A stretch of 64,000 bases of DNA from Sediminicoccus sp. KRV36 (lineage in GTDB: Bacteria; Pseudomonadota; Alphaproteobacteria; Acetobacterales; Acetobacteraceae). Within the stretch, counting starts at the first letter, position 1, and every line of letters starts with the position of its first letter. The stretch lies in NCBI RefSeq assembly GCF_023243115.1, contig NZ_CP085081.1, forward strand, positions 4,490,001-4,554,000. Direction: 5' to 3'. This document shows positions 4,397 through 24,192 of this stretch, one piece after another. A model generated the notes under the pieces. That model searched no databases. It had not been told where the DNA came from and saw only the letters and a list, made by a program, of their open reading frames with translations. A program made the translations under genes and the position numbers.

Positions 4397-5862
4397 GTCG
4401 GCGCTGTCGGCCAGGGGTTGCCGGCGGGCCAGGGCGCTTGGGCAGCGGCCGAGCCATATTGTTCCAACAAGGAAGCGAGGCTCAGTGCCTGGCCCAGATG
4501 CCCGCCCATCGCGGCATAGAGGTCGGCCCGCAAGGTGAATTCCAGAGGCGCCACCAAGGCGGGGGTCGGCACATAGCCAAAGGCCTTGTCCGGCAGTCGC
4601 AACACATCGGCCATGAGGGTGATCCCGCCTCCCGGATAGAGGTAGCAGGGCGCTCCCCCCATCGTGATGCGGACTTCACCGCGCTGCACCGCGCGCGTCA
4701 ACAGGATGGGGTTGTCCGTGACGCCCGCCCGCAGCGAGCCCCCCGCCCCGGCCATGAACAGGATGGAGGTCAGCGCCGGTTCGCAATTCTCCCCGATGCG
4801 GGCAACGCTTTTCGCGATGGCGGCCGGAACGGCGGCCGGGATGGGGCGCAGCGCCTCATCCAGTTCCACATAGAGGAAATCCTCGCCCGTGGTGCTGGTC
4901 AGCAGCAGGCGCATGCCGGGCCAGGCGAGCTTGGGGTCAATGCTTTCGATCAGCGTCAGCGGATCGGTCACGTCGGTGCCGCCCCAGCCCGTGCCGGGAT
5001 GCGCCACCTGGAAGTAGCGCCCGGGCGTGGAGCGGCGGCCGCGCACACGAATGCCGGAGGGGCGCATATTCAGGCATTTCCCGGCCTGGTGCTCCGTCAG
5101 GACGCCGGTGATGTGGTCATCCACCACGATCACCTCATCCACATGGCCCTGCCATTGCTGCGCGAAGATGCCCACGGCCGCGCTGCCGCAACCCACCCGC
5201 ATGCGCTGCTCCGGCACGCCGTTCACGATGGGCGCCGCACCCGCTTGCAGCACCAGCTTGGACCCGCCCTCGATCTGCACCTCGATCGCCTGTTTTCCCG
5301 CCAGGGCCAGCATGGCGGCGCAGGTCACATTCCCCTCGCGCTTCGAGCCGCCGGTCAAATGCCGCACGCCGCCGATACTGAGCATCTGCGAGCCATATTC
5401 GGCGGTGGTGACATGGCCGATCTGCTCGCCCTCATGCATCACGCGGGCGGCTTCCGGACCAAGATGGCGGTCCGTATCAATCTTCGCCTTCAGGCCGCAA
5501 TAGCTGAAGATGCCCTCGGTCACGACGGTGACGGTATCCACCCCCGCATGAATGCTGCTGACGATGAAGGGGGCGGGCTTGTAGTCGGGATAGGTGGTGC
5601 CGGCGCCGATGGCGGTGACGAAGGTGTTTTGGGCGATGCCGCCATCCCAAGCCTCGGCGGCGTCGAGGAAGGGCACCAGCGGCTGGTCCGTCCGGGTCAG
5701 CAGCACCAGCGGGTCGGTGCGGACCAGGCGGCCCTCCTCATTGGCGTAGCGATGGCAGGCGCCGGCGCGGCCAGGGCGGATGCGGCAGAGCACGGGGCAG
5801 GCATCGCAGCGGACGATGCCATCGGCCTCGGCGGCGCCGAAGATGGAGGTGCGGTCTACCAC
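4393..5862 (-). CDS. hnr: 6-hydroxynicotinate reductase-like iron-sulfur protein
   Basis: A 489-residue cytosolic protein resembling the family annotated as 6-hydroxynicotinate reductase, which reduces 6-hydroxynicotinate to 1,4,5,6-tetrahydro-6-oxonicotinate. A cysteine cluster near the N-terminus (C19, C22, C26, C36; CDACPVLC then RAGAC) is suited to a [4Fe-4S] centre. The remainder is a Gly-rich region with no simple NAD motif that I can point to. It lies in the leftward operon after the molybdenum hydroxylase genes and overlaps UPF0280. The enamidase gene, the next enzyme of the same route, lies in the divergent operon, which strongly supports the assignment. The true substrate could be a related hydroxylated N-heterocycle. 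Confidence 0.8.
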   Translation of the reverse strand: MVDRTSIFGAAEADGIVRCDACPVLCRIRPGRAGACHRYANEEGRLVRTDPLVLLTRTDQPLVPFLDAAEAWDGGIAQNTFVTAIGAGTTYPDYKPAPFIVSSIHAGVDTVTVVTEGIFSYCGLKAKIDTDRHLGPEAARVMHEGEQIGHVTTAEYGSQMLSIGGVRHLTGGSKREGNVTCAAMLALAGKQAIEVQIEGGSKLVLQAGAAPIVNGVPEQRMRVGCGSAAVGIFAQQWQGHVDEVIVVDDHITGVLTEHQAGKCLNMRPSGIRVRGRRSTPGRYFQVAHPGTGWGGTDVTDPLTLIESIDPKLAWPGMRLLLTSTTGEDFLYVELDEALRPIPAAVPAAIAKSVARIGENCEPALTSILFMAGAGGSLRAGVTDNPILLTRAVQRGEVRITMGGAPCYLYPGGGITLMADVLRLPDKAFGYVPTPALVAPLEFTLRADLYAAMGGHLGQALSLASLLEQYGSAAAQAPWPAGNPWPTAPT

Positions 5863-8685: not shown

Positions 8686-9431
8686 GCCGCGAGGCTTTCA
8701 CGGGCCCGCGCCACCAGTTCGGCGGCCGCCGCCCGGCGATAATCCGCCGTGCCGCGCACATCATCCATGGGTGTCAGCGCGCCCTCACCCCACAGGCGCG
8801 CCACTTCCGAGCAGGAGCCGATGGCGATGCGCCCCTCGGCATTGGCGGCGACCATGACGATGGAAATCACCAGATGCGCCCGCGCCCCCAGCTTGAGAAA
8901 CACGGAACGCCATGCGGCCCGCGCCATGGGCACATGCAGCGCGACCAGCAGCTCATCAGGCGCGCGCGCCGTGCGGCGATTGCCCAAGATGAATTCCGCC
9001 AGTTTCAGGCGACGGCGGCCGCGCTGGCTGGCCAATTCCACCTCCGCATCGAGCACCAGCAGGGGCGGCACGCCATCCGCCGCTGGCGAGGCGTTGCAGA
9101 GGTTGCCGCCAATGGTCCCGCGTGCCTGCACCTGGCGCCCGCCCACCTGGCGTGCCGCTTCCCGCAGCGCGTCAAAGCCGGGCGGCAGATCCGCATCGCG
9201 CAGGCTGGCCCAGCTGGTGGCGGCGCCGATGCGCCAGGAATCCGGCGCGCGGGTGATGCCGCGCAGCTCTGGAATGGCCGTGATGTCCAGCTGATCAGCC
9301 TGCTCCGGATTGCCCCAGGCCGCCCGATGCGCGCGGGCCGGAAAGAGATCAGTCCCACCCGCCATCACCTGCCAGGGGCCTTGCGCCAGCGCTTCCAACG
9401 CAGCGGACAACTCATGCGGCCTTCGATACAA
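8682..9431 (-). CDS. FAD-binding subunit of molybdenum hydroxylase (CoxM/CutM type)
   Basis: About 249 residues of the xanthine dehydrogenase FAD-binding family (PF00941 plus the CO_deh C-terminal domain). FAD-contact motifs AGGTDLFPAR (near residue 30) and RGTIGGNLCNASPAAD (near 100-115) are present. The subunit would carry electrons from the FeS/Mo subunit at 6034-8685 to an acceptor. I choose the TTG at 9431 because GGAGGGA lies 7-8 bases upstream and translation then begins YRRPHELSAALEAL, as usual for the family; an in-frame TTG at 9446 would lie on top of the ribosome site. It is the first gene of the leftward operon. Confidence 0.88.
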   Translation of the reverse strand: MYRRPHELSAALEALAQGPWQVMAGGTDLFPARAHRAAWGNPEQADQLDITAIPELRGITRAPDSWRIGAATSWASLRDADLPPGFDALREAARQVGGRQVQARGTIGGNLCNASPAADGVPPLLVLDAEVELASQRGRRRLKLAEFILGNRRTARAPDELLVALHVPMARAAWRSVFLKLGARAHLVISIVMVAANAEGRIAIGSCSEVARLWGEGALTPMDDVRGTADYRRAAAAELVARARESLAA

Positions 9432-9514
9432 ACCCAATCCCTCCAACGCGATGGCCCCTTGGCGCGGCGCTCCATCGGCACGTAACCTGTCGTGGCAGCT
9501 TAAGGGGATCGGGC

Positions 9515-10669
9515 ATGGCGCGCATACTGGTGAAGGGGCTTGGCCTCATCTTTTCGGGCGATTTCGCGGCACCGCGTCTCGATGCGGAAGCGATCCTGAT
9601 CGAGGGCGGAAGGATCGTCGGCATCGGAGCGGCGAAGGATTTCGAGGCCGAGACGGTGTTCGACGCCCAGGGCTGCGCCGTCATGCCTGGGCTGATCGAC
9701 AATCACGTCCACCCGGCCTTCGGCGACTGGACGCCGCGGCAAAACCAGCTCGGCTTCATCGAGGCCATGGTGCATGGCGGCACGACAACGCTGATCAGCG
9801 CGGGTGAGGTGCATCTGCCCGGCCGCCCCAAGGATGCGGTGGGGGTGAAGGCGCTGGCCATCGCCGCCCAGCGCTGCTTCTCGGCGTTTCGCCCGATGGG
9901 CGCACGCGTCATCGCCGGCGCGCCGGTGCCCGAACGTGGCTTCACCGAGGCCGATTACCAGGAGATGGCGGCCGGCGGTGTCACGCTGCTGGGCGAAATC
10001 GGCCTCGGCACCCTCAAGGAAGCCGATGAGGTGGTGGAGACCATGGGCTGGGCGCGCAAGGCCGGGCTGAATGCCATGATCCATTGCGGCGGGCCTTCCA
10101 TTGCAGGCTCCAACCTGATGCAGGCCGAGGTGGTGATCGCCGCCGATGCGGATATCGTGGCGCATATCAATGGCGGCCCGACTTCGCTGCCCGCCGCCGA
10201 ACTCACCAAGGTGATCGCCGGCACCCATCGCGCCATCGAGATCGTGCACAATGGCAATCCGCGCAACGCCATCCATGCGCTGAAGGTGCTGACCGAGATG
10301 GGCCGGCTGGACCGGCTGGTGATCGGCACCGACAGCCCCGCCGGCTCCGGCGTGCAGCCCTTGGGCGTGATGCGCACCATCTCGCTGCTCTGTTCGCTGG
10401 GCGGGCTGGATCCGGCCATCGCCATCGCGGCGGCGGGGGGCAATACGGCGCGCTGGCGCAACATCCAGGCCGGCGTGATCAAGCTGGGGGCGGCGGCGGA
10501 TCTGGTGTTCCTGGACGCGCCCATCGGCGGCGCCGGCCGCGATGCGAGCGAGGCCTTCACCTATGGCGAATTGCCCGGCATCGGCATGGTGATGGTGGAT
10601 GGCGAGGTGAAGACCATGCGCAGCCGCAACACCCCGCCCGCGGCCCGCATTCCGGTGGTTCTGTCATGA
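9515..10669 (+). CDS. ena: Enamidase (amidohydrolase superfamily)
   Basis: A 384-residue cyclic amidohydrolase very similar by recall to Eubacterium barkeri enamidase, which opens 1,4,5,6-tetrahydro-6-oxonicotinate to 2-formylglutarate. Shared landmarks are SGDFAAPRLDAEAI at the N-terminus, the metal motif HVH (H64, H66), GGTTTLISAGEVHLPGRPKD, GEIGLGTLKEADEV, HINGGPTSLPAAEL, the metal-binding GTDSPAGSG segment, and the terminal KTMRSRNTPPAAR. The start follows AAGGGGATCGGGC. It heads the rightward operon, divergent from the hydroxylase FAD gene across a gap of about 80 bp, and overlaps the next gene by ATGA. Dihydropyrimidinase-like alternatives are less likely given the specific motifs and neighbours. 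Confidence 0.88.
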   Translation: MARILVKGLGLIFSGDFAAPRLDAEAILIEGGRIVGIGAAKDFEAETVFDAQGCAVMPGLIDNHVHPAFGDWTPRQNQLGFIEAMVHGGTTTLISAGEVHLPGRPKDAVGVKALAIAAQRCFSAFRPMGARVIAGAPVPERGFTEADYQEMAAGGVTLLGEIGLGTLKEADEVVETMGWARKAGLNAMIHCGGPSIAGSNLMQAEVVIAADADIVAHINGGPTSLPAAELTKVIAGTHRAIEIVHNGNPRNAIHALKVLTEMGRLDRLVIGTDSPAGSGVQPLGVMRTISLLCSLGGLDPAIAIAAAGGNTARWRNIQAGVIKLGAAADLVFLDAPIGGAGRDASEAFTYGELPGIGMVMVDGEVKTMRSRNTPPAARIPVVLS

Positions 10670-11244
10670 TCATCCGCAAGATATTCACGAGCGTCGAGGA
10701 AACGCGCCTGGAGATGGGGCGCGAGGTCTCACCCCCCATCCGCCGCGCCATCGCGGCCATGGTGCTGAAGAACCCCTTCGCCGGCCGCTATGTGGAAGAC
10801 CTCTCGGAGCTGATCGAGGCCAGTGTGCCGCTCGGCGCCGAACTCGCCGCGCGCGCCATCGCGGCCCTCGGCATCCCCGGTGACCAGGTGCACAGCTTCG
10901 GCAAGGCGGCCATCGTGGGCGAGGATGGCGAGCTGGAACACGCCGCCGCCCTGCTGCATCCCAAGATGGGGGCGCCCGTTCGCGCGGCACTCGGCAAGGG
11001 GCCGGCGCTGATTCCTTCGGCCAAGAAGCGCGGCGGGCCGGGCACGCCGATTGACATCCCCCTCGGCCACAAGGATGCCGCCTTCGTGCGCAGCCATTTC
11101 GACGCCATCGAGGCGCGGCTCACCGATGCGCCGATGCGCGATGAAATCCTGCTCTGCCTGGCGCTGACCACGGGAGGGCGGCCACTGCCGCGCGTCGGCG
11201 GGCTGACGACGGGCGAGATCATCGGCCAGGATGGCTTGCGATAA
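10666..11244 (+). CDS. Amino acid synthesis (AA_synth, PF06684) family protein
   Basis: A 192-residue protein of the AA_synth family, named historically and without an established reaction. Family motifs visible are IRKIFTSVEETRLEMGR at the start, NPFAGRYVEDLSELI, FGKAAIVGEDGELEHAAALL, LIPSAKKRGGPGTPIDIPLG and the C-terminal GGRPLPRVGGLT. The start ATG overlaps the enamidase stop (ATGA), so the two are translationally coupled. A role close to the enamidase step, such as handling the ring-opened product or an alternative hydrolytic step, is inference from coupling only. A longer open frame exists upstream in the same frame but antiparallels enamidase coding and is not used. Confidence 0.85.
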   Translation: MIIRKIFTSVEETRLEMGREVSPPIRRAIAAMVLKNPFAGRYVEDLSELIEASVPLGAELAARAIAALGIPGDQVHSFGKAAIVGEDGELEHAAALLHPKMGAPVRAALGKGPALIPSAKKRGGPGTPIDIPLGHKDAAFVRSHFDAIEARLTDAPMRDEILLCLALTTGGRPLPRVGGLTTGEIIGQDGLR

Positions 11245-11272: not shown

Positions 11273-12643
11273 ATGCTGCACTGCATGCATGACGCCATCC
11301 GCTTCACCCTGAACCAGATTCCGCGCGAATTGCCGCGCGAAACCTTGCCCACCCAGACCTTGCTCGACTGGCTGCGCGCGCAAGGCATGACCGGCACCAA
11401 GGAAGGCTGCGCCGAGGGCGATTGCGGCGCGTGCACCGTGGTGCTGGAAGCTGCCGATAGCGCCCGCACGCCCATCAATGCCTGCCTTTGCACGTTGGGC
11501 CAGTTGCATGGCCGCGCCATCCGCACCGTCGAGGGGCTGGGGCCCGATCACCCCATCCCGCGCGCCATGGCCGCGGCGGATGCGACACAATGCGGCTTCT
11601 GCACGCCGGGCATCGTGATGTCCGCCTGGGCGCAAGCAAGCGAGGGCGGCGAGGCGCATGAGGCGCTGGCCGGCAACCTTTGCCGCTGCACCGGATATCG
11701 ACCGATCCTCGATGCCATGGCGAGCCTTGCGGAAGAGGAGGCCGTGCCGCCCGCCCTGCCGCAAAGCTCCAGCGCAAGCTTCGGAGGCTTTCACCTGCCG
11801 GCGAGCCTGGCCGAGGCGCTGGCCCTGCGCGCGGCCCTTCCCGCCGCCTGGCTGCTGATGGGCGGCACCGATCTGGGCCTGCGCTTCGCCGAGCATCGCG
11901 AGCATCCGGCCGAGGTCATCTGCCTGCTGAGCGTGACGGAGATGCAGGGCATCACGCGCAGTGCAACGGGGCTCAGCATCGGCGCCGCCGCCCCCTATGC
12001 GGAACTCCTGGCGGCCTGCCGCGCCGATGTGGATTTCGCGCCGCTTGCACCCTATCTGGCGCGGCTCGGCTCGCGACAGATCCGGGGCCTGGGTACGGTG
12101 GCCGGCAATCTTGGCACCGCCTCCCCCATCGGCGACGCGCTGCCCATCCTGCTCGCGCTGGACGCCGAGGTGGAGCTGGCCGCACCGCGCGCCATACGGC
12201 GCCTGAAGGTGGAGGATTTCATCACCGGCTATCGCCGCAACGCGCTCCAGCCGGACGAACTGATCCTGGCCATCCATCTGCCACGCCCACCCGCCGGCGC
12301 GCTGCTGGCGGCGGAGAAACTCTCGCGGCGGCATGACCAGGATATCAGCGCCGTCTCCCTGGTCGCCTGCCTGAGCTTGCGCGATGGCGTGGTGCAGGAC
12401 GCGCGCCTCGCCTTCGGCGGCATGGCGGCCAGGGCCGAGCGCGCGCCTGCGGCCGAGGCTGCGCTGAAGGGCCGCACCCTGGATGACGCCGCAATGCGCG
12501 CGGCCGGTGCCGCGCTGCATTTCACGCCGATGAGCGATGCGCGCGCCAGCGCCGAGTATCGCCTGGAAGCGGCACGCGGATTGCTGCGCCGCGTGGCACT
12601 GCGCCACACCCATCCGCATCTCGCCGCCGAAGTGCATGCGTGA
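11273..12643 (+). CDS. xdhA: Xanthine dehydrogenase-type FeS/FAD small subunit (XdhA-like)
   Basis: A 456-residue protein with two [2Fe-2S] domains (CAEGDCGAC near residue 48 and CGFCTPG...CRCTGY near 100-145) followed by the FAD-binding domain (LLMGGTDLGLRF near 200, GLGTVAGNLGTASP near 280) and the CO_deh flavoprotein C-terminus. This is the XdhA architecture, unlike the fused FeS/Mo enzyme to the left. Its stop overlaps the start of the Mo subunit (ATGATGG). The start is uncertain: ATG at 11273 or 11285, neither with a strong ribosome site. Canonical xanthine oxidation is possible, but its position behind enamidase suggests another N-heterocycle. Confidence 0.88.
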   Translation: MLHCMHDAIRFTLNQIPRELPRETLPTQTLLDWLRAQGMTGTKEGCAEGDCGACTVVLEAADSARTPINACLCTLGQLHGRAIRTVEGLGPDHPIPRAMAAADATQCGFCTPGIVMSAWAQASEGGEAHEALAGNLCRCTGYRPILDAMASLAEEEAVPPALPQSSSASFGGFHLPASLAEALALRAALPAAWLLMGGTDLGLRFAEHREHPAEVICLLSVTEMQGITRSATGLSIGAAAPYAELLAACRADVDFAPLAPYLARLGSRQIRGLGTVAGNLGTASPIGDALPILLALDAEVELAAPRAIRRLKVEDFITGYRRNALQPDELILAIHLPRPPAGALLAAEKLSRRHDQDISAVSLVACLSLRDGVVQDARLAFGGMAARAERAPAAEAALKGRTLDDAAMRAAGAALHFTPMSDARASAEYRLEAARGLLRRVALRHTHPHLAAEVHA

Positions 12644-14928
12644 TGGATGACGCAACACCCAGGCTGCGCTTTGCCGGCCAGGCGATGCGCCATGACAGCG
12701 CGCTGAAACACGCCACGGGCGAGGCGCGCTTCCTAGATGACCTGCCCGAGCCCGCCGGCACGCTGCATGCGGCCCTGGCACTCTCGCCCGTCGCGCATGG
12801 GCATTTGCTGGGGTTGGAGACCGCGGCCGCGGCGGCCATGCCGGGCGTGGTGCGGATCATCACCGCCCGCGATATTCCGGGCGAGAATGACATCGCACCC
12901 ATTGGCAGCGGCGAGCCGATGCTGGCCGAAAACCTTGTGGAGCATCACGGCCAGGCCATCGCGCTCGTGGTGGCACGGACGCGCGATGCGGCACTTCGCG
13001 CCGCCGCCGCCATCACACCGCGCATCGCGATGCTGCCGCCCATCCTCAGCATCGAGGAGGGCCTGGCCCGCGAGGCCTGGATCATCCCGCCGCAGATCAT
13101 CCGCGAGGGCGATGCCGCCGCCGCATTGGCCCGGGCGCCCCATGCGCTGCGTGGCGAATTCCAGGCCGGCGGGCAGGAGCATTTCTACCTGGAAGGCCAG
13201 ATCACGCTCGCCATTCCAGGCGAGGATGGCGAGATGCTGGTGCATGCCTCCACCCAGCACCCGACGGAGGGGCAGCATGTCATCGCCCGCGTGCTGGGCG
13301 TGCCCTATCACCGCGTCACCGTGCAATGCCGCCGCATGGGCGGCGCCTTTGGCGGCAAGGAAAGCAATGCGAGCTGGGTGGCCGCCGCAGCTGCCGCCGC
13401 GGCCGCGCTGACTGGCCAACCGGTGAAGCTGCGCCTGCCACGCTGCGCCGACATGGCGGCGACGGGCAAGCGGCATCCGTTTCTCTATCGCTGGCACGTC
13501 GGCTTCGATTCCGACGGCAAGCTCCTGGCTCTCGATGCCCTGCTGGCCGGCGATGGCGGGCATAGCCTCGACATGTCAGGCGGCGTGGTGTTCCGGGCCG
13601 TCACCCACGCGCTGAATTGCTACGCCGTGCCGGATGTGACGATCACGGCCTGCGCGGTGAAGACCAACCACGTCAGCAACACGGCATTTCGCGGCTTTGG
13701 CGGGCCACAGGGCGCATTGCTGATGGAGGAGGTGCTCCATGCCATCGCGCGGCATCTGGACCGCGACGTCGAGGATCTGCGTGCGATCAATATCGCCGCA
13801 CGCACACCCTATGGGCAAGCGCTGGAACCGGAGCTGACGCGGCGGGTCTGGGCGGAGGCCAGGCGCGATGCGGGATGGGCCGAAAAGCAGGCCGAGATCG
13901 CCGCCTTCAACGCCGCGCACCCGACGCTGCGCCGCGGGCTTGGCAGCTTCGTCTGCGCCTTCGGCATCAGCTTCGGCATTCCGCATCTGAACCAGGCCGG
14001 GGCGCTGGTGCATATCTATACCGATGGCTCGATCCGCCTCGCGCATGGCGGCACCGAGATGGGGCAGGGCCTATTCATCAAGGTGGCGCAGGTGGTGGCC
14101 GAGGTGTTCTCCGTACCCGTCGGCCAGGTCGGCATCAGCGCGACGACGACGGCGGAAATCCCCAATACCAGTGCCACCGCCGCCAGCACCGGCAGCGACC
14201 TCAATGGCTGGGCCGCCCATGCGGCGGCCACCACGCTGCGCGAACGCATGGCCAGCGTCGCCGCCGCACATTTCGGCTGCGCGGCCGAGGAGGTCATCTT
14301 TGAAAATGGCTCGGTCTTTCCGGCGCGGCCGGGCAGCAATGAGCGGCTGGGCTTCGGGGACCTCGCCAAGCTTTGCTGGAAGGCCCGCGTCAGCCTCTCC
14401 GCCACCGGCTTCTACAAGACGCCCGATATCCATTGGGACGCGCAGGCGATGCGCGGCGCGCCCTTCTTCTATTTCAGCTACGGCGCCGCGGTGGCCGAGG
14501 TGATCCTGGATACGCTGACCGGCGAGCATCGCTGCCTTTCGGCGCATCTCGTGCAGGATTGCGGGCGCAGCCTGAACCCAGCGATTGACCTCGGTCAGAT
14601 CGAAGGCGCCTTCGTGCAGGGGCTGGGCTGGCTGACCAGCGAGGAGCTGTTCTGGGATGCGGAGGGGCGCCAGTGCAATCTTGGCCCCTCCACCTACAAG
14701 ATCCCGGGCTCGCGCGATGTGCCGCCGGTCTTCAGCACCCGCCTCCTGGAAGGCGCGCCCAACCGGGCCGCGACCATCTTCCGCAGCAAGGCGGTGGGCG
14801 AGCCGCCGCTGCTGCTGGCGACCGCGGTGGTCAACGCACTGCGTGCCGCGGCAGGGGTTGCGCATCTGGATTTGCCAGCCACGCCCGAGCGGCTTCTGCT
14901 TAATTTGAGGGCACAAAAAACCGCTTGA
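12640..14928 (+). CDS. xdhB: Xanthine dehydrogenase-type molybdopterin subunit (XdhB-like)
   Basis: A 762-residue molybdopterin subunit matching the XdhB family along its length: QEHFYLEGQ, RRMGGAFGGKE (near 235), NTAFRGFGGPQG with the substrate-contacting Arg (near 350), GGTEMGQGL, NTSATAASTGSDLNG, FYKTPDIHWD, and KAVGEPPLLLA with the catalytic Glu near residue 725. It would pair with the gene just upstream to form an alpha-beta hydroxylase. No xdhC chaperone or guanine deaminase accompanies it, which weakens a purine-only role. The gap to the ABC ATPase gene downstream is only about 95 bp, so uptake genes may be cotranscribed. Confidence 0.9.
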   Translation: MMDDATPRLRFAGQAMRHDSALKHATGEARFLDDLPEPAGTLHAALALSPVAHGHLLGLETAAAAAMPGVVRIITARDIPGENDIAPIGSGEPMLAENLVEHHGQAIALVVARTRDAALRAAAAITPRIAMLPPILSIEEGLAREAWIIPPQIIREGDAAAALARAPHALRGEFQAGGQEHFYLEGQITLAIPGEDGEMLVHASTQHPTEGQHVIARVLGVPYHRVTVQCRRMGGAFGGKESNASWVAAAAAAAAALTGQPVKLRLPRCADMAATGKRHPFLYRWHVGFDSDGKLLALDALLAGDGGHSLDMSGGVVFRAVTHALNCYAVPDVTITACAVKTNHVSNTAFRGFGGPQGALLMEEVLHAIARHLDRDVEDLRAINIAARTPYGQALEPELTRRVWAEARRDAGWAEKQAEIAAFNAAHPTLRRGLGSFVCAFGISFGIPHLNQAGALVHIYTDGSIRLAHGGTEMGQGLFIKVAQVVAEVFSVPVGQVGISATTTAEIPNTSATAASTGSDLNGWAAHAAATTLRERMASVAAAHFGCAAEEVIFENGSVFPARPGSNERLGFGDLAKLCWKARVSLSATGFYKTPDIHWDAQAMRGAPFFYFSYGAAVAEVILDTLTGEHRCLSAHLVQDCGRSLNPAIDLGQIEGAFVQGLGWLTSEELFWDAEGRQCNLGPSTYKIPGSRDVPPVFSTRLLEGAPNRAATIFRSKAVGEPPLLLATAVVNALRAAAGVAHLDLPATPERLLLNLRAQKTA

Positions 14929-15022: not shown

Positions 15023-15800
15023 GTGAGCGATACGATCCTTGAAACGGAAGGCCTGACGAAGGAGTTCCGCGGCTTTCTCGCGGTGCAGGGCGTCAACCTC
15101 CGGGTCCGGCGCGGCACGATCCACGGGCTGATCGGCCCGAATGGCGCGGGCAAGACCACCTGCTTCAACCTGCTCACCAAATTCCTGATCCCGACACGCG
15201 GCAAGATCACCTATGACGGGCGCGACATCACCAACATGAAGCCGGCCGAAGTGGCCCGGCTAGGACTTGTCCGGTCGTTTCAGATTTCCGCCGTCTTTCC
15301 GAACCTGACCGTGCTGGAGAATGTCCGCCTTGCGCTGCAACGCGCGCGCGGCAACAGCTTCGATTTCTGGCGCTCCGATTCCATTCTCAAGCAATTTGAC
15401 GGCCGCGGGCGGGAATTGCTCGAGGATGTGGGCCTCACCGAATATGCCGAGGTCCAGGCGGGATCGCTGCCTTACGGCCGCAAGCGCGCGCTGGAAATCG
15501 CCACCACCCTCGCCCTGGAACCTACCATGATGCTGCTGGACGAGCCCACGGCCGGCATGACGCATGAGGATGTGGACCGCATCGTGGCACTGGTGAAGCG
15601 CGTTTCCAAGGGCCGCACCGTGCTGCTGGTGGAACACAATCTCAAGGTCGTCGAAGGGCTTTGCGACACCATCACCGTCCTCGCCCGGGGCGAGGTTCTG
15701 GCCGAGGGAGACTACATGGCCGTCAGCCGAAATCCCGATGTGCAGGCCGCCTATCTCGGCACCGATCCCGCCTCGGTTGGCGTGCCGGAGAGCGCCATCC

Positions 15801-15808
<8 letters not shown>
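15023..15808 (+). CDS. LIV-type ABC transporter ATPase (LivG-like)
   Basis: A 261-residue ATP-binding subunit of a branched-chain-amino-acid-type importer. It has Walker A GPNGAGKTT, the LivG-specific region DITNMKPAEVARLGLVRSFQ, signature-like LPYGRKRALEIA, Walker B MMLLDEPTAGM and the H-loop LLVEHNL. I prefer the GTG at 15023 (VSDTILETEGLTKEF) preceded by AAGGGGACA, to the in-frame TTG further upstream. Its end overlaps the next ATPase start by 8 bases. The unusual signature (PYGRKRALE in place of LSGGQ) is typical of LivG subfamilies. The imported compound is probably the substrate of the neighbouring catabolic genes. Confidence 0.92.
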
Positions 15809-16505
<697 letters not shown>

Positions 16506-16560: not shown

Positions 16561-17796
16561 ATGACCGAGAGCACTCGCCGCAGCTTGATGGGCGCGGCGG
16601 CCGCAGCGCCGCTTCTGGCCATGCCGCTTTCCGCCCGGGCGCAGGCCGCCAACACCATCCGGGTTGGCGTGCTGACCGATCTCTCCGGCACCTTCCGCGA
16701 CCTGAACGGGCCGAACACCGTGGCCGCCACGCGGCTTGCCGCGCAGGAATTCGCCGGCCGCGGCTTCAATGTGGAAGTGGTGGTCGCCGACCACCAGAAC
16801 CGCCCCGATGTCGGTGTGAACATCGCCCGCCAATGGTTCGACCGCGAGAATGTGGATGTGGTGACCAGCCTCGCTGCCTCCTCCGTGGCGCTGGCCGTGG
16901 CCGATGTCGCCCGCGAACGCAACAAGGTGGCCATCGCGACCTCGACCGCGACCTCGGACCTGACCGGTCGCGCCTGCAATCCCAATACCATCCACTGGGT
17001 CTATGACACCTACATGCTGGCCAAGACCAGCGGTGGCGCCACGGTGCGCGCAGGCGGCGATACCTGGTTCTTCATGACCGCTGACTACGCCTTCGGCCAT
17101 GCGCTGGAGCGCGATACCTCGGCCTTCGTGCGCGCTGCCGGCGGCCGCGTGGTCGGCAGCGTGCGCACGCCGTTTCCGGGCACGACGGATTTCAGCTCCT
17201 TCCTGCTCCAGGCCCAGGCCAGCCGCGCCAAGGTCATCGGCCTGGCCAATGCCGGGGTGGATACCATCAACTCCATCAAGCAGGCGGCCGAATTCGGCAT
17301 CACCCGGCGCGGCGTAAAGATCGCCTCGCTGCTGCTCTTCATCACCGATGTCCATGCATTGGGGCTGGAAGTGGCGCAGGGCCTGGTCTGCGCGAACACC
17401 TTTTACTGGGACGCGAATGACCAGACCCGCGGATTGACGCGGCGCATCCGCGCCATCGCCGGCGGCGACACGCCGGTGGCGATGAGCCATGCGGGCGACT
17501 ATGCCGGCACGCTGCACTATCTCAAGACGGTCGCCGATATGGGCGTGGCCGCGGCCAAGGCGAGCGGCCGCGCGACGGTCGAACGCATGAAGGCGATGCC
17601 GACGCAGGATGACGCCTTTGGCGCAGGCAGCATCCGCGCCGATGGACGCAAGCTGCATCCGGCCTTCCTCTATGAGGTGAAGTCGCCGGCCGAAAGCCGC
17701 CACCAGCATGACTACTATAAGCTCTTGCAGACCTCGACGGCGGAGGAGGCTTTCCGCCCCCTCGCCGAGGGCGGCTGCAGCCTGATCCGCCCCTGA
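16561..17796 (+). CDS. Periplasmic substrate-binding protein 1 of LIV-type importer
   Basis: A 411-residue type I periplasmic binding protein (Peripla_BP_6 class). The N-terminus RRSLMGAAAAAPLLAMPLSA ending ARAQA is a Tat-type signal peptide with predicted cleavage after AQA near residue 26. The mature part starts ANTIRVGVLTDLSGTFRDLN, the ligand-lobe entry of LivK-like proteins, and contains HQNRPDVGVN and YAFGHALERD, stretches shared by all four binding proteins here. AAAGGTGTGAGATC precedes the ATG. It is the most divergent member in the DANDQTRGL region and lacks the NDQSG element of the others, suggesting a different ligand range. Confidence 0.92.
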   Translation: MTESTRRSLMGAAAAAPLLAMPLSARAQAANTIRVGVLTDLSGTFRDLNGPNTVAATRLAAQEFAGRGFNVEVVVADHQNRPDVGVNIARQWFDRENVDVVTSLAASSVALAVADVARERNKVAIATSTATSDLTGRACNPNTIHWVYDTYMLAKTSGGATVRAGGDTWFFMTADYAFGHALERDTSAFVRAAGGRVVGSVRTPFPGTTDFSSFLLQAQASRAKVIGLANAGVDTINSIKQAAEFGITRRGVKIASLLLFITDVHALGLEVAQGLVCANTFYWDANDQTRGLTRRIRAIAGGDTPVAMSHAGDYAGTLHYLKTVADMGVAAAKASGRATVERMKAMPTQDDAFGAGSIRADGRKLHPAFLYEVKSPAESRHQHDYYKLLQTSTAEEAFRPLAEGGCSLIRP

Positions 17797-17836
17797 TCCC
17801 CCCACCGCCTCACTTCACTGAGCAGGACCGCAAAAC

Positions 17837-19084
17837 ATGACCGAAACCAGCCGCCGCAGTCTGATCGGCGCCGCCGCCACCGCCCCCGTCTGGGGCGCGC
17901 TTCCCTTCCGCTCGGCGCGTGCCCAGGCGGCCAATACCATCAAGATCGGCGTGTTGAACGACCAGTCGGGCACCTACCGGGACCTCTCCGGCCCGGGCTC
18001 GACCCAGGCGGTGCGCCTTGCCATCCAGGAAAGCGGCATCACCCAGCGCGGCATCAATGTCGAGGTCGTGCAGGCGGACCACCAGAACCGCCCCGATGTG
18101 GGCAGCACCGTGGTGCGCCAATGGATTGACCGCGACGGCGTGGACCTGGTCATGGACGTGCCGACGAGTTCGGTCGCACTCGCCGTCAACACGATCGTGC
18201 GCGAGAAGAACAAGATCTTCATCAGCTCGGGCGCCGCAAGCTCGGATCTGACGGGCAGCGCCTGCTCGCCCAATACCATCCATTGGACCTATGACACCTG
18301 GATGCTGGCGCGCAGCACCGGCGGCGCCATGGTGCGCGCGGGCGGCCAGACCTGGTTCTTCATCACGGCGGATTACGCCTTCGGCCATGCGCTGGAGCGC
18401 GATACCGGAGAATTCGTCCGCACGGCCGGCGGCCGGGTGCTGGGCCAGGTGCGCACGCCCTTCCCGGGGACGACCGACTTCTCCTCCTTCCTGCTCCAGG
18501 CGCAATCATCCCGCGCGCAGGTGGTCGGGCTAGCCAATGCGGGCGGTGACACCATCAACACCATCAAGCAGGCGGCGGAATTCGGCCTGACGCGCGGCGG
18601 CCGCGTAAAGCTGGCCGGATTGCTCGTCTTCATCACGGATGTGCATTCGCTCGGCCTGCAGACGGCGCAGGGGCTGGTGCTGACCGAGACCTTCTACTGG
18701 GATCTGAACGACAAGACGCGCGCCTTCACGACACGGATGGGCGCCATGCCGGGCAACATCAAGCCCTCCATGGTGCAGGCCGGCTGCTATTCCGGCGCGC
18801 TGCATTACCTGAAGGCCGTGGGCGAGATGGGGATCGCCGCCGCCAAGGCCGGCGGGGTCGAGGTGGTGAACCGCATGAAGGCCATGCCGACCGATGATGA
18901 CGCCTTCGGCCCGGGCAGCATCCGCCCCGATGGCCGCAAGCTGCATCCCTCCTATCTGTTCGAGGTGAAGGCGCCGGCCGAAAGCCGCGCGCCGTGGGAT
19001 TACTACAAGCTGCTGGGCACGACCTCCGCCGAGGACAGCTTCCGCCCCGTGACCGCCGGGGGCTGCGCATTGATCCGCAGCTGA
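17837..19084 (+). CDS. Periplasmic substrate-binding protein 2 of LIV-type importer
   Basis: A 415-residue paralogue of the preceding binding protein. Tat signal SRRSLIGAAATAPVWGALPF ends in ARAQA; the mature protein begins ANTIKIGVLNDQSGTYRDLS. It keeps the shared blocks HQNRPDVG, NTIHWTYDTWMLA, AMVRAGGQTWFFITADYAFG and PAESRAPWDYYKLLGTTSAE. Its gap to gene 1 is only 40 bp, while a strong hairpin (19101-19129) follows it. Differences between the paralogues cluster in segments that line the ligand cleft in LivK-type proteins (after SGTYRDL, and TSSVALAVN), consistent with related but distinct ligands. Exact specificity cannot be read from sequence. Confidence 0.92.
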   Translation: MTETSRRSLIGAAATAPVWGALPFRSARAQAANTIKIGVLNDQSGTYRDLSGPGSTQAVRLAIQESGITQRGINVEVVQADHQNRPDVGSTVVRQWIDRDGVDLVMDVPTSSVALAVNTIVREKNKIFISSGAASSDLTGSACSPNTIHWTYDTWMLARSTGGAMVRAGGQTWFFITADYAFGHALERDTGEFVRTAGGRVLGQVRTPFPGTTDFSSFLLQAQSSRAQVVGLANAGGDTINTIKQAAEFGLTRGGRVKLAGLLVFITDVHSLGLQTAQGLVLTETFYWDLNDKTRAFTTRMGAMPGNIKPSMVQAGCYSGALHYLKAVGEMGIAAAKAGGVEVVNRMKAMPTDDDAFGPGSIRPDGRKLHPSYLFEVKAPAESRAPWDYYKLLGTTSAEDSFRPVTAGGCALIRS

Positions 19085-19100
19085 TTTGCATGACAACCAC

Positions 19101-19129
19101 GGGGCGAGGCGGCAAAGACCGCCCGCCCC
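19101..19129 (+). other. Intercistronic hairpin after binding protein 2
   Basis: GGGGCG-A-GGCGG, a 6-nt loop CAAAGA, then CCGCC-CGCCCC: an 11-bp GC stem with one bulge and no T-run. It lies between the stop at 19084 and the start at 19149. A hairpin of this type downstream of a binding-protein gene commonly protects the upstream mRNA from 3' exonucleases and raises its level relative to the permease genes. Confidence 0.7.
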
Positions 19130-19148
19130 CCAGAGGGAGTTTCCAAGA

Positions 19149-20393
19149 ATGTCCAATGTGAATCGCCGCAGCCTGATCGGTGGCGCCGCCGCCACCGCCG
19201 CCTTCGGCGCCCTGCCCAGCTGGCAGGCGCGCGCCCAGGCCGCGAACACCGTCAAGATCGGCGTGCTGAACGACCAGTCCGGCCTGTATCGCGATGTGAA
19301 CGGCCCGGGCTCCGTCTCCTGCGTGCGCCAGGCCATCCAGGATTCCGGCGTCACCGCGCGCGGCATCAATGTCGAGGTCGTGGTGGGTGACCACCAGAAC
19401 CGCCCCGATGTCGGCGCCACCATCACCCGGCAATGGTTCGACCGGGACAATGTGGACCTGCTGCTGGATGTGCCGACCTCCTCGGTGGCGTTGGCGGTGA
19501 ACCAGATCGCGCGTGAGAAGAACAAGATCCACATCAACTCCTCGGGCGCCACCTCGGATCTGACGGGCGCGCAATGCACGCCGAACACGATCCATTGGAC
19601 CTATGACACCTACATGCTCGCCAAGAGCACGGGCGGCGCCATGGTGCGCGCGGGCGGGGATACCTGGTTCTTCCTGACCGCCGACTACGCCTTCGGCCAT
19701 GCGCTGGAGCGCGATACCTCCAACTTCGTGCGCGCTGCCGGTGGCCGCGTGCTGGGTGCGGTGCGCACGCCCTTCCCGGGCACGGATTTCTCGGGCTTCC
19801 TGGTGCAGGCGCAGGCTAGCCGGGCCAAGGTCATCGGCCTTGCCAATGCAGGTGGCGATACCATCAACTCCATCAAGCAGGCGGCCGAATTCGGCATCAT
19901 GCGGCGCGGCACCAAACTCGCCGCATTGCTGATGTTCATCAGCGACGTGCATTCGCTGGGCCTCGAAACCGCCCAGGGCCTGGTTTGCACCGAGACCTTC
20001 TACTGGGATCTGAATGACCGCACCCGCGCCTTCACCCGGCGCGTCCTGCCCTCCATGCCGCAGCAATTGCGGCCGGGCATGGCGCAGGCCGGCTGCTACT
20101 CGGCCGTCATGCATTACCTGAAGACGGTGGCCGAGATGGGCGTGCCGGCAGCCCGCGCGAGCGGCGTGGAGACGGTGAACCGCATGAAGGCGCAGCCGAC
20201 GGATGATGATGCGATGGGCCAGGGCATGATCCGCCCGGATGGCCGCCGCATCCAGCCCTCCTATCTGCTGGAGGTGAAATCCCCGCGCGAGAGCACCGGC
20301 CCCTGGGACTACTACAAGCTGCTCGGCACCACCCCGGCCGATGAGGCGTTCCGCCCTCTCGCCGAGGGCAATTGCGCCTTCCTCCGCACCTGA
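19149..20393 (+). CDS. Periplasmic substrate-binding protein 3 of LIV-type importer
   Basis: A 414-residue paralogue, closest by eye to binding protein 2. Tat signal NRRSLIGGAAATAAFGALPS ends in ARAQA and the mature chain begins ANTVKIGVLNDQSGLYRDVN. The ATG at 19149 follows GAGGGAGTTTCCAAGA; an in-frame start further upstream would add an unlikely leader. It carries the common HQNRPDVG, STGGAMVRAGG and WDYYKLLGTTPADEAFRPLA blocks. It has one residue fewer in the FPGT-DFSGF loop (FPGTDF, where copies 1, 2 and 4 have a TTDF sequence). Confidence 0.92.
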   Translation: MSNVNRRSLIGGAAATAAFGALPSWQARAQAANTVKIGVLNDQSGLYRDVNGPGSVSCVRQAIQDSGVTARGINVEVVVGDHQNRPDVGATITRQWFDRDNVDLLLDVPTSSVALAVNQIAREKNKIHINSSGATSDLTGAQCTPNTIHWTYDTYMLAKSTGGAMVRAGGDTWFFLTADYAFGHALERDTSNFVRAAGGRVLGAVRTPFPGTDFSGFLVQAQASRAKVIGLANAGGDTINSIKQAAEFGIMRRGTKLAALLMFISDVHSLGLETAQGLVCTETFYWDLNDRTRAFTRRVLPSMPQQLRPGMAQAGCYSAVMHYLKTVAEMGVPAARASGVETVNRMKAQPTDDDAMGQGMIRPDGRRIQPSYLLEVKSPRESTGPWDYYKLLGTTPADEAFRPLAEGNCAFLRT

Positions 20394-20402
20394 TCTTCAA
20401 CC

Positions 20403-20434
20403 GGGGGCAGGTGGGCGCCAGACCTGCCGCCCCC
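20403..20434 (+). other. Intercistronic hairpin after binding protein 3
   Basis: A GC stem GGGGGCAGGT paired with ACCTGC(CG)CCCCC around the loop GGGCGCCAG, no T-run, located between the stop at 20393 and the ATG at 20454. It occupies the same relative position as the hairpins at 19101 and 21704, which suggests a common role in mRNA stability within this operon. Confidence 0.6.
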
Positions 20435-20453
20435 ACCAAGGGAGCAAAGTCCA

Positions 20454-21680
20454 ATGACCGAAATCAACCGCCGCAGCCTGATCGCAGGCACCGCTGCCCT
20501 CGGCGCCCTGCCGAGCTGGAAGGCGCGCGCCCAGGCCGCCAACACCATCCGCATCGGCGTGCTGAACGATCAGTCCGGCCCCTATCGCGATTTGTCGGGC
20601 CCCTATGGCGTGCAATGCACGCTGCAGGCGGTGCAGGAATTCGGCAATCGCGGCTTCAACGTCGAAGTCGTGAATGCCGACCACCAGAACCGCCCCGATG
20701 TGGGCGTGAATATCGCCCGGCAATGGTATGACCAGGGCGTGGACATGATCATTGACGTGCCGACCTCCTCGGTCGGTCTCGCGGTCAACGGTGTCGCGCG
20801 CGAGAAGAACAAGGCCTACGTCAACACAGGCTCCGCCACCTCCGATCTCACGGGCGCGCAGTGCAGCCCGAACACCGTGCATTGGATGTACGACACCTAC
20901 ATGCTGGCCAAGTCCACCGGGGCCGCCATGGTGCGTGCCGGCGGCGACAGCTGGTTCTTCATCACGGCCGACTACGCCTTCGGCCATGCGCTGGAGCGCG
21001 ATACCGGCAATTTCGTCCGCAGCGCGGGCGGCCGAGTGGTGGGCAGCGTGCGCTATCCCTTCCCCGCGACGACCGACTTCTCCTCCTTCCTGCTCCAGGC
21101 GCAGTCGGCCCGGCCGAAGGTCATCGGCTTCGCCAATGCCGGGGCAGACCTGATCAACAGCATCAAGCAGGCGGCGGAGTTCGGCGTGACGCGGCGCGGC
21201 ATCAAGCTCGCCGCGCTGCTGATGTTCCTGCCCGATGTGCATTCCATCGGCCTGGCAACGGCCCAGGGCCTGGTGCTGACCGAGAGCTTCTACTGGGATC
21301 TGAATGACCGCACCCGCGCCCTGACCCAGCGCCTGCAACCCCGCCTCAGGGACCAGGTGCCGAACATGGCTTCGGTCGCCAATTACTCGGGTGCGCTGCA
21401 TTACCTGAAGGCGGTGGCCGATATGGGCGTGCCGGCGGCCAAGGCCTCGGGCGTGGATGTCATCAACCGCATGAAGGCGATGCCCTGCGATGATGACGCA
21501 TTCGGCCCGGGCACCATCCGCGCCGATGGGCGCAAGCTCTGCCCCTCCTATCTGTTCGAGGTCAAGGCGCCCGCCGAAAGCCGCGGCCGATGGGATTACT
21601 ACAAGCTGATCGGCACCACGCCGGCGGAAGAAGCCTTCCGCCCGCTGGCCGATGGCAACTGCGCCTTCCTCCGCACCTGA
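20454..21680 (+). CDS. Periplasmic substrate-binding protein 4 of LIV-type importer
   Basis: A 408-residue fourth paralogue. Tat signal NRRSLIAGTAALGALPSWKA ends in ARAQA; the mature protein begins ANTIRIGVLNDQSGPYRDLS. In the EFGNRGFNVEVV segment it resembles copy 1 (EFAGRGFNVEVV) rather than copies 2 and 3 (TxRGINVEVV), while its C-terminus resembles copy 3. That mosaic pattern hints at duplication with some gene conversion. The ATG follows AAGGGAGCAAAGTCCA. It is the last binding protein before the permeases. Confidence 0.92.
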   Translation: MTEINRRSLIAGTAALGALPSWKARAQAANTIRIGVLNDQSGPYRDLSGPYGVQCTLQAVQEFGNRGFNVEVVNADHQNRPDVGVNIARQWYDQGVDMIIDVPTSSVGLAVNGVAREKNKAYVNTGSATSDLTGAQCSPNTVHWMYDTYMLAKSTGAAMVRAGGDSWFFITADYAFGHALERDTGNFVRSAGGRVVGSVRYPFPATTDFSSFLLQAQSARPKVIGFANAGADLINSIKQAAEFGVTRRGIKLAALLMFLPDVHSIGLATAQGLVLTESFYWDLNDRTRALTQRLQPRLRDQVPNMASVANYSGALHYLKAVADMGVPAAKASGVDVINRMKAMPCDDDAFGPGTIRADGRKLCPSYLFEVKAPAESRGRWDYYKLIGTTPAEEAFRPLADGNCAFLRT

Positions 21681-21764: not shown

Positions 21765-22649
21765 ATGGAAGAGATTTTCGGCATTCCCACGCCGCTGCTG
21801 TTCGGGCAGTTGCTGCTGGGCCTCATCAACGGGGCCTTTTATGCGCTGCTCTCGCTCGGGCTTGCCGTGATCTTCGGCATGCTGAATGTGATCAACTTCA
21901 CCCATGGCGCGCAGTTCATGATGGGCGCCTTCGTCGCCTGGATGCTGCTGAACTATCTGGGCATCGGCTATTGGGGGGCGCTGATCCTGGCGCCGCTGAT
22001 CGTGGGGATCACGGGGGTCATCCTCGAACGCACCATGATCGCCCGATTGTACAAGCTCGATCACCTCTATGGCCTGTTATTGACCTTCGGCGTCGGCCTC
22101 ATCATCGAGGGGCTGTTCCGCAATGAATTCGGCTCCTCCGGCCTGCCCTACCGCATCCCGCCGGAACTGACCGGCGCCTGGGATCTGGGCTTCATGTTCA
22201 TGCCGATCTATCGCGGCTGGGTCGTCGTCGTGGCGGTGGTGATGTGCCTGGCCACCTGGCTGGTCATCGAGAAGACCAAGATCGGCTCCTACCTGCGGGC
22301 CGCGACCGAGAATCCGGCGCTGGTGCAGGCCTTCGGCATCAATGTGCCGCGAATGATGACGCTGACCTATGGCGCGGGTGTGGCACTCGCCGCCTTCGCG
22401 GGGGTGCTGGCGGCCCCCATCTATTCGGTGAACCCGCAGATGGGCAGCAACCTGATCATCATCGTCTTCGCCGTCGTCGTCATCGGCGGCATGGGCTCCA
22501 TCCTCGGCTCGGTCATCACCGGCTTCGGGCTGGGCGTCGTCGAGGGGCTGACCAAAGTGTTTTATCCGGAGGCGTCATCCACTGTGATCTTCGTCGTCAT
22601 GGCGATCGTGTTGCTGGCGCGCCCCGCCGGCCTGTTCGGGAGGAGCTGA
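21765..22649 (+). CDS. LIV-type ABC transporter permease (LivH-like)
   Basis: A 294-residue inner-membrane permease with about eight hydrophobic segments. Characteristic motifs are LINGAFYALLSLGLAVIFGM near the N-terminus, INFTHGAQFMMGAF, and the ATPase-coupling loop RAATENPALVQAFGINVPRM near 190. The C-terminal part GGMGSILGSVITGFGLGVVE is also typical. ATG at 21765 follows AGGAAACGGACC. It would form the translocation pore with the LivM-like product immediately downstream (3-bp gap). Confidence 0.93.
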   Translation: MEEIFGIPTPLLFGQLLLGLINGAFYALLSLGLAVIFGMLNVINFTHGAQFMMGAFVAWMLLNYLGIGYWGALILAPLIVGITGVILERTMIARLYKLDHLYGLLLTFGVGLIIEGLFRNEFGSSGLPYRIPPELTGAWDLGFMFMPIYRGWVVVVAVVMCLATWLVIEKTKIGSYLRAATENPALVQAFGINVPRMMTLTYGAGVALAAFAGVLAAPIYSVNPQMGSNLIIIVFAVVVIGGMGSILGSVITGFGLGVVEGLTKVFYPEASSTVIFVVMAIVLLARPAGLFGRS

Positions 22650-22652
22650 GAC

Positions 22653-23639
22653 ATGGCGGCTCCCGGCGGTTTCAGCGGCACGGATTTCAAGCAGGAGGAA
22701 GGCGTCTTCCTCGGCTTCTCCAAGGCCCAGCTCCTGGCCTTCCTCGCGATGGTCGCGTTCATCGCGATCAGCCCCTTCTTCCTCTATCCCGTCTTCCTGA
22801 TGAAGCTCCTGTGCTTCGCGCTGTTCGCCTGCGCCTTCAACCTGCTGATCGGCTATGTCGGCCTGCTGAGCTTCGGGCATGCGGCGTATTTCGGCATGGG
22901 CGGCTACCTGGCCGGCCATGCGGCGAAGGTCTGGGGTCTCTCGCCCGAGCTTTCGATCCTCATCGGCGGCGCGGTGGGGGCCATGCTCGGCCTGGTCATC
23001 GGCTGGATCGCCATCCGGCGGCAGGGCATCTACTTCGCCATGATCACGCTGGCCTTCGCCCAGATGGTCTATTTCTTCTGCGTCCAGGCGCCCTTCACAG
23101 GCGGTGAGGACGGCATCCAGTCCATCCCGCGCGGCAAGTTCCTGGGCATCGTGGACCTCAGCCCGGATCTGAGCATGTACTGGATGACGGCGGGGATCTT
23201 CCTAATCGGCTTCCTGCTGATTCACCGGATCGTGCATTCGCCCTTCGGCATGGTGCTGAAATCCATCCGCGAGAATGAGCCCCGCGCCACCTCGCTCGGC
23301 TACCGGACGGATGACTACAAGCTGATGGCCTTCATCCTCTCAGCCGGCCTGGCGGGCGTGGCGGGCGGGCTGAAATCCATCGTCTTTGGCATCGCAACGC
23401 TGACGGATGTCTTCTGGACGATGTCGGGTGAGGTGGTGCTGATGTCGCTGGTGGGGGGGCTCGGCACCATCTTCGGGCCGGTGGTGGGGGCCGCGGTCAT
23501 CATCACCATGCAGAACTACCTGGCCGAATTCGGCGCCTGGGTGACCGTGATCCAGGGCGTCATCTTCGTACTCTGCGTGCTGGCCTTCCGCCGCGGCGTG
23601 GTGGGTGAGATCGGCAACTGGTTGCGCGTTCGCCTCTGA
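22653..23639 (+). CDS. LIV-type ABC transporter permease (LivM-like)
   Basis: A 328-residue second permease. LivM features are LIGYVGLLSFGHAAYFGMGG (near residue 65), the FAQMVYFFCVQ helix, the coupling loop SIRENEPRATSLGYRTDDYK (near 210) and GGLGTIFGPVVGAAVI near the end. It is the last gene of the rightward operon: two hairpins follow, the second being a clear intrinsic terminator at 23692-23737. With the LivH-like and two ATPase products it forms one importer that must serve all four binding proteins. Confidence 0.93.
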   Translation: MAAPGGFSGTDFKQEEGVFLGFSKAQLLAFLAMVAFIAISPFFLYPVFLMKLLCFALFACAFNLLIGYVGLLSFGHAAYFGMGGYLAGHAAKVWGLSPELSILIGGAVGAMLGLVIGWIAIRRQGIYFAMITLAFAQMVYFFCVQAPFTGGEDGIQSIPRGKFLGIVDLSPDLSMYWMTAGIFLIGFLLIHRIVHSPFGMVLKSIRENEPRATSLGYRTDDYKLMAFILSAGLAGVAGGLKSIVFGIATLTDVFWTMSGEVVLMSLVGGLGTIFGPVVGAAVIITMQNYLAEFGAWVTVIQGVIFVLCVLAFRRGVVGEIGNWLRVRL

Positions 23640-23652
23640 TCCTGACCTGAAC

Positions 23653-23737
23653 CAGGCCGCCACCTCCCTGCTTTGGGGGCGGCCTGCCTGACCCCGGAGC
23701 CACTCCCCTGTCAGGGACGTGGCGGCCGGGGTTTTTT
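23653..23737 (+). terminator. Operon-end hairpin and Rho-independent terminator
   Basis: A first hairpin AGGCCGCC...GGCGGCCT spans 23653-23685. The second, 23692-23737, pairs CCCCGG and GCCAC with GTGGC and CCGGGG around a CTCCCCTGTCAGGGA-like loop and runs directly into TTTTTT. It ends the long rightward operon that starts with enamidase. Confidence 0.85.
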
Positions 23738-23859
23738 CATGGCTGGAGGCTGGACAGCCGGCACCGGGCCGCCGCGCACCGCGCCAGACGCTTCGCCCGT
23801 CTGAAAACGCATGATTTCATTCAGAAAAGCTCTTTTTTCATATTTTATTGAACCAAGAC

Positions 23860-23888: not shown

Positions 23889-23983
23889 ATCATTGCCGAG
23901 ACGTCTTATGAGGCGTTTCCGACTCCCCCCAAAGAGCCTCCCGGCAGAAGGATGGCCAAAAGACAGCCGCGTGAGGACTCCCA

Positions 23984-24157: not shown

Positions 24158-24192
24158 ACCGTCCTTTCGCAGCGCCTTCCCCCCCGAGGAGC

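Follow-up and report, generated by a model that had tools for sequence, protein, structure and literature searches.

Four binding-protein genes in one LIV-type importer operon of Sediminicoccus sp. KRV36: an ordered array of variable size that probably supplies several receptors to one importer

The stretch of DNA analysed here, referred to as the window, comprises 64,000 nucleotides of the genome of Sediminicoccus sp. KRV36 (Acetobacteraceae; assembly GCF_023243115.1, contig NZ_CP085081.1, positions 4,490,001 to 4,554,000 of the forward strand). It contains four related genes for substrate-binding proteins (SBPs), SBP1 to SBP4, which lie head to tail on the plus strand at positions 16561 to 21680. 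They are flanked on the 5' side by a pair of ATPase genes and on the 3' side by a pair of permease genes of an ATP-binding cassette (ABC) importer of the leucine/isoleucine/valine (LIV) type. The clades named in the following list refer to a tree described below.

15023..15808, plus strand: ATPase 1, LivG/UrtD-like, probable GTG start at 15023; best model UrtD with 217.9 bits, below the cut-off of 304.1
15801..16505, plus strand: ATPase 2, LivF/UrtE-like; UrtE with 219.2 bits, below the cut-off of 285.8
16561..17796, plus strand: SBP1, binding protein of 411 residues; PF13458 308.2 bits; clade H, support 0.998
17837..19084, plus strand: SBP2, binding protein of 415 residues; PF13458 335.1 bits; clade D, support 0.883, sub-clade 0.953
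19149..20393, plus strand: SBP3, binding protein of 414 residues from the ATG at 19149; PF13458 324.5 bits; clade G, support 0.18
20454..21680, plus strand: SBP4, binding protein of 408 residues; PF13458 327.3 bits; clade A, support 0.958
21765..22649, plus strand: permease 1, LivH/UrtB-like; next-best relative in the same genome 40% identical
22653..23639, plus strand: permease 2, LivM/UrtC-like, assigned by profile scan

The presence of two LivGF-type ATPases and two LivHM-type permeases in one cluster identifies an importer of the LIV or hydrophobic amino acid uptake transporter (HAAT) type, although the equivalog cut-offs are not reached, and more than one binding protein is encoded with the single membrane complex. 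SBP1 to SBP4 match PF13458 (Peripla_BP_6) over profile positions 1 to 339 of 343, far above the cut-off of 31.7 bits, and have the type I periplasmic binding protein fold. The equivalogs for branched-chain amino acids and urea (PRK15404, UrtA, and archaeal UrtA) are not matched, the best NCBIfam score being 40.6 bits against a cut-off of 494.8. An earlier, sequence-only reading of the window described four intact, full-length binding proteins of 408 to 415 residues encoded together with two ATPases and two permeases, which is confirmed by the open reading frames and the PF13458 matches. The blocks HQNRPDVG and YAFGHALERD, named there as common, are found in all four translations. Pairwise identities range from 67.1 to 72.9% for amino acids and from 70.8 to 76.5% for nucleotides, and direct repeats run in register across the four genes with spacings of about 1288, 1312, and 1287. 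As regards a putative Tat or Sec signal peptide, the twin arginine at positions 6 and 7 of SBP4 is kept in at least 90% of 71 aligned sequences. The AlphaFold2 model of SBP4 has a mean predicted local distance difference test (pLDDT) value of 91.7. The host genome, a single contig of 4.91 Mb, contains 13 PF13458 matches; SBP4 as query retrieves, besides the four array copies, a fifth relative (62%) and a single further, weak match.

In the following, G- and L-numbers are the genome and locus labels of the analysis, with G000 being the host genome. Relatives of SBP4 are present in all 21 genomes of the genus. The genus survey covered 20 stretches from 18 other genomes plus the window. A complete array with two to four binding proteins between the ATPase and permease genes was found in 15 of the 21 genomes, including the window; G010, G014, G016, and G018 contain array parts on broken contigs, and G008 and G015 fell outside this stretch survey. 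Four copies are present in G005 and G009, as in the window, and the parts found in G014 fit four. The array is real and an assembly error as its source is ruled out, because G000 is one contig and G005 and G009 carry four copies in the same place.

A census of the host's family comprised 120 genomes with a completeness of 90% or more and was searched with permease 1, so that array size did not influence selection. The importer was detected in 70 genomes (permease 1 match at E ≤ 1e-115); one importer stretch was taken per matching genome, leaving out second matches in G038 and G083, and two further stretches end at a contig edge. Among the 68 closed arrays, 2 encode no binding protein, 23 have a single one, and 23 have two; 8 arrays carry three, 6 carry four, 2 each carry five and six, and 1 each carries seven and eight. 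At least two are thus present in 43 arrays and at least four in 12. The array of eight (G107) includes interrupted copies and is nearer six genes, and one array of three (G040) includes a 56-residue piece. A second set of 65 complete arrays, that of the window included, has an upward bias, as it was selected for similarity to SBP4 and for array size; nine loci had been set aside as repeats. The copy numbers in this set are one (8 arrays), two (13), three (18), four (13), five (9), six (2), seven (1), and eight (1, the interrupted array of G192). The largest intact array, with seven binding proteins, belongs to G145 (L130), with a trigger factor gene upstream and a DUF1028 gene downstream. At L060 and L137 (Siccirubricoccus sp. 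G192 and G107), several copies are interrupted, either by decay or by sequencing error. The sequence-only reading had proposed the expansion of one importer. The multi-copy array stands, but it is family-wide by census rather than local to this genome; the observation was right and understates the case.

The kinship of the binding proteins was analysed with a FastTree tree of 269 out of 322 extracted proteins, 267 of which are distinct. The other 53 were dropped as repeated loci, for lengths outside 380 to 440 residues, or for an internal stop. Best matches among all 269 proteins were determined for 200 full-length proteins from those arrays of the biased set that have two or more copies (57 arrays); for 199 of them, the closest protein belongs to another array. 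Only one was closest to a neighbour in its own array, namely in a pair of the seven-copy G145 array that is 85% identical. Clades were cut from the tree such that at most 6% of arrays may hold two members of a clade, and the window's copies fall into four of them. Clades H, D, and A include well-supported members of other genera. SBP3 belongs to a strongly supported group of nine proteins (0.993) from the host genus only, with weak wider links (0.585, 0.758, and 0.18).

The order of the clades along the operon is nearly fixed. In the 57 complete arrays that comprise two or more clades, 10 of 290 pairs depart from the common order, whereas shuffles give 98 on average; when the weak larger clades F, G, K, and N are excluded, the figures are 5 of 180 and 62. 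In G011, two sub-clades of clade D lie side by side. The window has one of these, while G005, G009, G012, G014, and G018 have the other, and the genes of the G005 cluster other than those for binding proteins are 84 to 98% identical to those of the window. Shared ancestry with unequal loss would be the simplest reading of this distribution, with transfer as a possible alternative. Best matches outside the own array, combined with a near-fixed clade order, point to an inherited array that was pruned differently by lineage.

Ratios of non-synonymous to synonymous change (dN/dS) of 0.06 to 0.19 were obtained for SBP1, SBP3, and SBP4 against their orthologues in G005 and G009, for SBP1 and SBP4 against G014, and for SBP4 against G159. 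The transporter genes show values of 0.04 to 0.08 against G005. For SBP2, a close orthologue is absent from both G005 and G009; its dN/dS is about 0.18 to 0.31 against sub-clade copies that are 71 to 84% identical. All four copies thus appear to be under purifying selection, and together with the position of the array in the operon this makes one importer with several receptors well supported. Synonymous change was rejected as a duplication clock, since dS is 0.54 to 0.84 among the window's paralogues versus 0.40 to 0.85 among orthologues, and duplication ages are unreadable because synonymous change is near saturation.

Residues specific to individual clades concentrate in loops that face the predicted cleft, mostly in one loop. 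When the mask of cleft-facing positions is shifted along the protein, 7 of 358 shifted masks do as well as the actual one. This location makes it likely that the clades differ in ligand preference. SBP1 departs most clearly from the other copies, with 60 to 63% identity in cleft-side loops and 69 to 70% elsewhere. Mapping the contact residues of CouP (PMC3610893) by sequence was abandoned: CouP appeared in the structural comparison but was not among the 30 profile-search matches at E ≤ 10, and no residue-level claim is made.

SBP4 had been described as mixing features of copies 1 and 3. A local resemblance exists, but a mosaic origin by gene conversion was rejected, as the longest identical runs gave permutation p values of 0.0175 to 0.175 for the six pairs, none of which is below 0.05 after correction. 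The features that SBP1 and SBP4 have in common in the block concerned, namely the absence of a two-residue insert and matching residues, represent the most frequent state in the majority of the other clades. The likeness of SBP4 to SBP1 and SBP3 is therefore better explained by shared common states.

On this basis, which comprises the anatomy, the intact frames, the arrays in relatives, the kinship across genomes, the clade order, and the cleft-loop residues, the locus is read, with moderate confidence, as one LIV-type importer with several interchangeable binding proteins, each probably with its own ligand preference and all docking the same complex. The two ATPases and two permeases would form a single importer fed by several periplasmic binding proteins, each of which probably combines a common framework with its own preference, and all four would dock on the same membrane complex. 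The array would be inherited, with members kept or lost by lineage. The ligands may be small acids taken up for catabolism, in the host genus probably including ring acids of the nicotinate type.

Several points weigh against this interpretation. The cleft-loop enrichment stems largely from residues 299 to 307, and when everything from residue 290 onwards is left out, 42 of 258 shifted masks equal the actual one; moreover, the variable columns were already known when the mask was drawn. Pairs among SBP2 to SBP4 share 69 to 76% of residues in cleft-side loops versus 71 to 76% elsewhere, so that the earlier claim of differences in ligand-facing segments holds clearly for SBP1 only. Clade D, to which SBP2 belongs, and clade F are nearly identical in their loop signature, and an own ligand for every clade is therefore not needed. 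Since the arrays share descent, their conserved order reflects inheritance and cannot be counted as so many independent events. Among the solved relatives with this fold are also proteins that bind amino acids and urea. Finally, G004 and G011, both listed as 100% complete (G011 in 440 contigs), are without a match to the reductase or the enamidase that are encoded near the importer in the window. These and the other genes on the 5' side of the operon are as follows.

4393..5862, minus strand: 6-hydroxynicotinate reductase-like protein; close relatives are so named, no Pfam or NCBIfam match
6034..8685, minus strand: molybdenum hydroxylase that unites Fe-S and Mo parts in a single chain; all matches to xanthine dehydrogenase-type models score below cut-off
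8682..9446, minus strand: FAD subunit of a molybdenum hydroxylase; models below cut-off
9515..10669, plus strand: enamidase-like amidohydrolase; matches the enamidase PDB 2vun at E 4e-102 over residues 1 to 381, a similarity and not an activity
10666..11244, plus strand: PF06684 (AA_synth) protein, Pfam match
11273..14928, plus strand: xanthine dehydrogenase-type small and large subunits; the large one exceeds the TIGR02965 cut-off (947 bits against 849.5), and the small one stays below that of TIGR02963 (401.5 bits against 467)

The reductive nicotinate pathway uses 6-hydroxynicotinate reductase and enamidase. The neighbouring genes would fit such a degradation, given the enamidase relative, the reductase named in relatives, and the genes of molybdenum hydroxylase type. 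Within the genus, 16 of 21 genomes encode the reductase, G016 contributing only a weak piece, and 17 of 21 have an enamidase-like gene, G017 being counted for a 47% relative only; in 13 of 19 same-genus genomes, the enamidase gene lies within the examined array stretch. An importer dedicated to nicotinate, whose copies catch only nicotinate and pathway intermediates such as 6-hydroxynicotinate in step with the neighbouring enzymes, could be proposed on these grounds. This is unlikely, as G004 and G011 have no match to the reductase or enamidase but retain the importer, with two binding proteins in G004 and three in G011; in G011, a xanthine dehydrogenase-type gene lies beside the importer. Furthermore, an enamidase-like gene occurs within the examined stretch of only 20 of the 65 complete arrays, and none was found in the 20 kb examined around the seven-copy array of G145. 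Ten genes beside three arrays gave no common substrate clue in Pfam. The array is linked to the pathway by neighbourhood only, and because of G004, G011, and the 20 of 65 arrays, the importer is not tied to nicotinate genes. The proposal that one importer serves several related ring compounds is thus upheld in its first part, by the array in the operon, the purifying selection, and the clade-specific loops. Its second part rests on the neighbours, and G004 and G011 counter a general rule; ring-compound ligands are plausible in the host genus and not in general.

Alternatively, the copies may share one ligand, with extra genes merely providing more binding protein. The framework common to all copies, the similar identity of SBP2 to SBP4 in cleft-side loops and in the remainder, and stem-loops between the genes, which could raise binding-protein expression, would agree with such a dosage effect. 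It predicts recent, alike copies within an array, whereas the best-match count found the opposite for 199 of the 200 members tested, the exception lying in the G145 pair. In addition, the clades keep their own loop residues, and none of the conversion tracts remains significant once the six tests are corrected for. Redundancy of this kind is accordingly judged quite unlikely. The small number of clade repeats per array was dropped from this argument because the cutting rule itself limits repeats, and the best-match count was used instead. The stem-loops of the window lie in two of the gaps.

19082..19151, plus strand: SBP2-SBP3 gap, GC-rich stem-loop; minimum free energy (MFE) -27.7 kcal/mol, z -3.8, stability reached by 0 of 200 shuffles
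20391..20456, plus strand: SBP3-SBP4 gap, GC-rich stem-loop; MFE -26.7 kcal/mol, z -1.6, stability reached by 11 of 200 shuffles

In same-genus arrays, 16 of 36 gaps between binding-protein genes fold at z < -2 (60 mononucleotide shuffles each), and gaps 3' of clade H genes are short and weakly folded.

Binding proteins of the family are also encoded away from the importer. The fifth member of the host genome (clade J, 62% to SBP4; L150:9416-10717, minus strand, own genome C1:1587418-1588650) sits in an operon of a tripartite ATP-independent periplasmic (TRAP) transporter with DctP, DctQ, and DctM, beside a PF00144 protein. Importer genes are absent near this locus in all 13 same-genus genomes considered (the host's and 12 chosen ones); DctM adjoins in 9 of them and starts about 5.6 kb off in 3, and one stretch lacks it. 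In G022 (L182) and G076 (L176), the ATPase and permease genes are about 32 to 42 bp apart with no binding protein between them. On other contigs, G022 has 12 and G076 has 3 family members (E ≤ 1e-60) that are 39 to 63% identical to SBP4. One of these 15 (G022, contig C133) shares its contig with another permease match (E ≤ 1e-30), both drafts being in hundreds of contigs. We infer that such distant members may use the remote importer. A wider reading, offered tentatively and held at slightly less than even confidence, is that of a receptor hub in which a near-constant importer is combined with changeable receptors, 0 to 7 in intact arrays and others scattered, including one in a TRAP operon, so that the uptake range would shift by receptor gain and loss. 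That some copies are receptors or sensors for a TRAP system or signalling, merely co-expressed and no longer feeding the importer, would suit the fifth member, whose TRAP operon is without ABC parts in the host and its relatives, but is very unlikely, as the four genes lie between the importer's ATPase and permease genes in an order conserved in relatives and no TRAP family was found in the part of the neighbouring proteins that was scanned. As a separate observation, L061 (Methylobacterium sp. WSM2598) carries a clade A relative (75%), and no importer genes were found in the 21 kb examined.

The principle of one importer with several receptors is of a known kind. In Escherichia coli, the two binding proteins LivJ and LivK serve the one importer LivHMGF for amino acids. 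The present system resembles it in having two ATPases, two permeases, and more than one type I binding protein per membrane complex; it differs in that four binding proteins, or seven in the largest intact array, belong to different clades in conserved order. A study on Rhodopseudomonas palustris (PMC3223731) lists 72 ABC gene clusters, of which 61 have one binding protein, 9 have two, and 1 has three, and reports that RPA3723 and RPA3724 have differing binding profiles, which was proposed to widen the range of one importer. These clusters contain fewer copies than the importer family studied here, with its 12 of 68 closed arrays of at least four. The solved relatives 3i09 (BMA2936) and 3n0w (Bxe_C0949) are 47% and 36% identical over the structural alignment; no ligand is named for them, and they do not settle specificity. 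Binding proteins for aromatic acids from R. palustris (RPA0985 4evs, RPA0668 4evq, 4eyg, and CouP 4jb0) share 14 to 25% identity, and their ligand residues are not transferable by sequence.

No description of ordered binding-protein arrays of this size was found in searches of the open-licence literature, and the array size, the order, and the apparent pruning look new. The presence of none to seven binding proteins in nearly the same order suggests that related bacteria may alter uptake by swapping binding proteins while the importer is kept. If so, the system would allow a direct look at how one membrane complex accepts many receptors, in terms of the surface kept for docking and the residues that set the ligand, with the clades as natural variants that have the same partner. 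For annotation, the number of binding proteins rather than that of importers would set the uptake range, and orphan binding proteins might be partners of importers encoded far away.

On the 3' side of permease 2, positions 23637-23740 form a long, GC-rich hairpin (MFE -52.1, z -3.7) followed by a T run. It is terminator-like and absent from the output of the terminator scan; the sites reported by the promoter and terminator scans are no more numerous than in shuffles. A short frame at about 23900-24200, between the operon and position 24193, resembles, by eye, a small Flp-type pilin in its motif. Further downstream, positions 26318-34035 encode a 4-hydroxyphenylpyruvate dioxygenase, a DUF1028 protein, and ABC components of the oligopeptide type. 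Related oligopeptide-type binding proteins occur at 12 of the 65 array loci, and DUF1028 at 6 of the 65.

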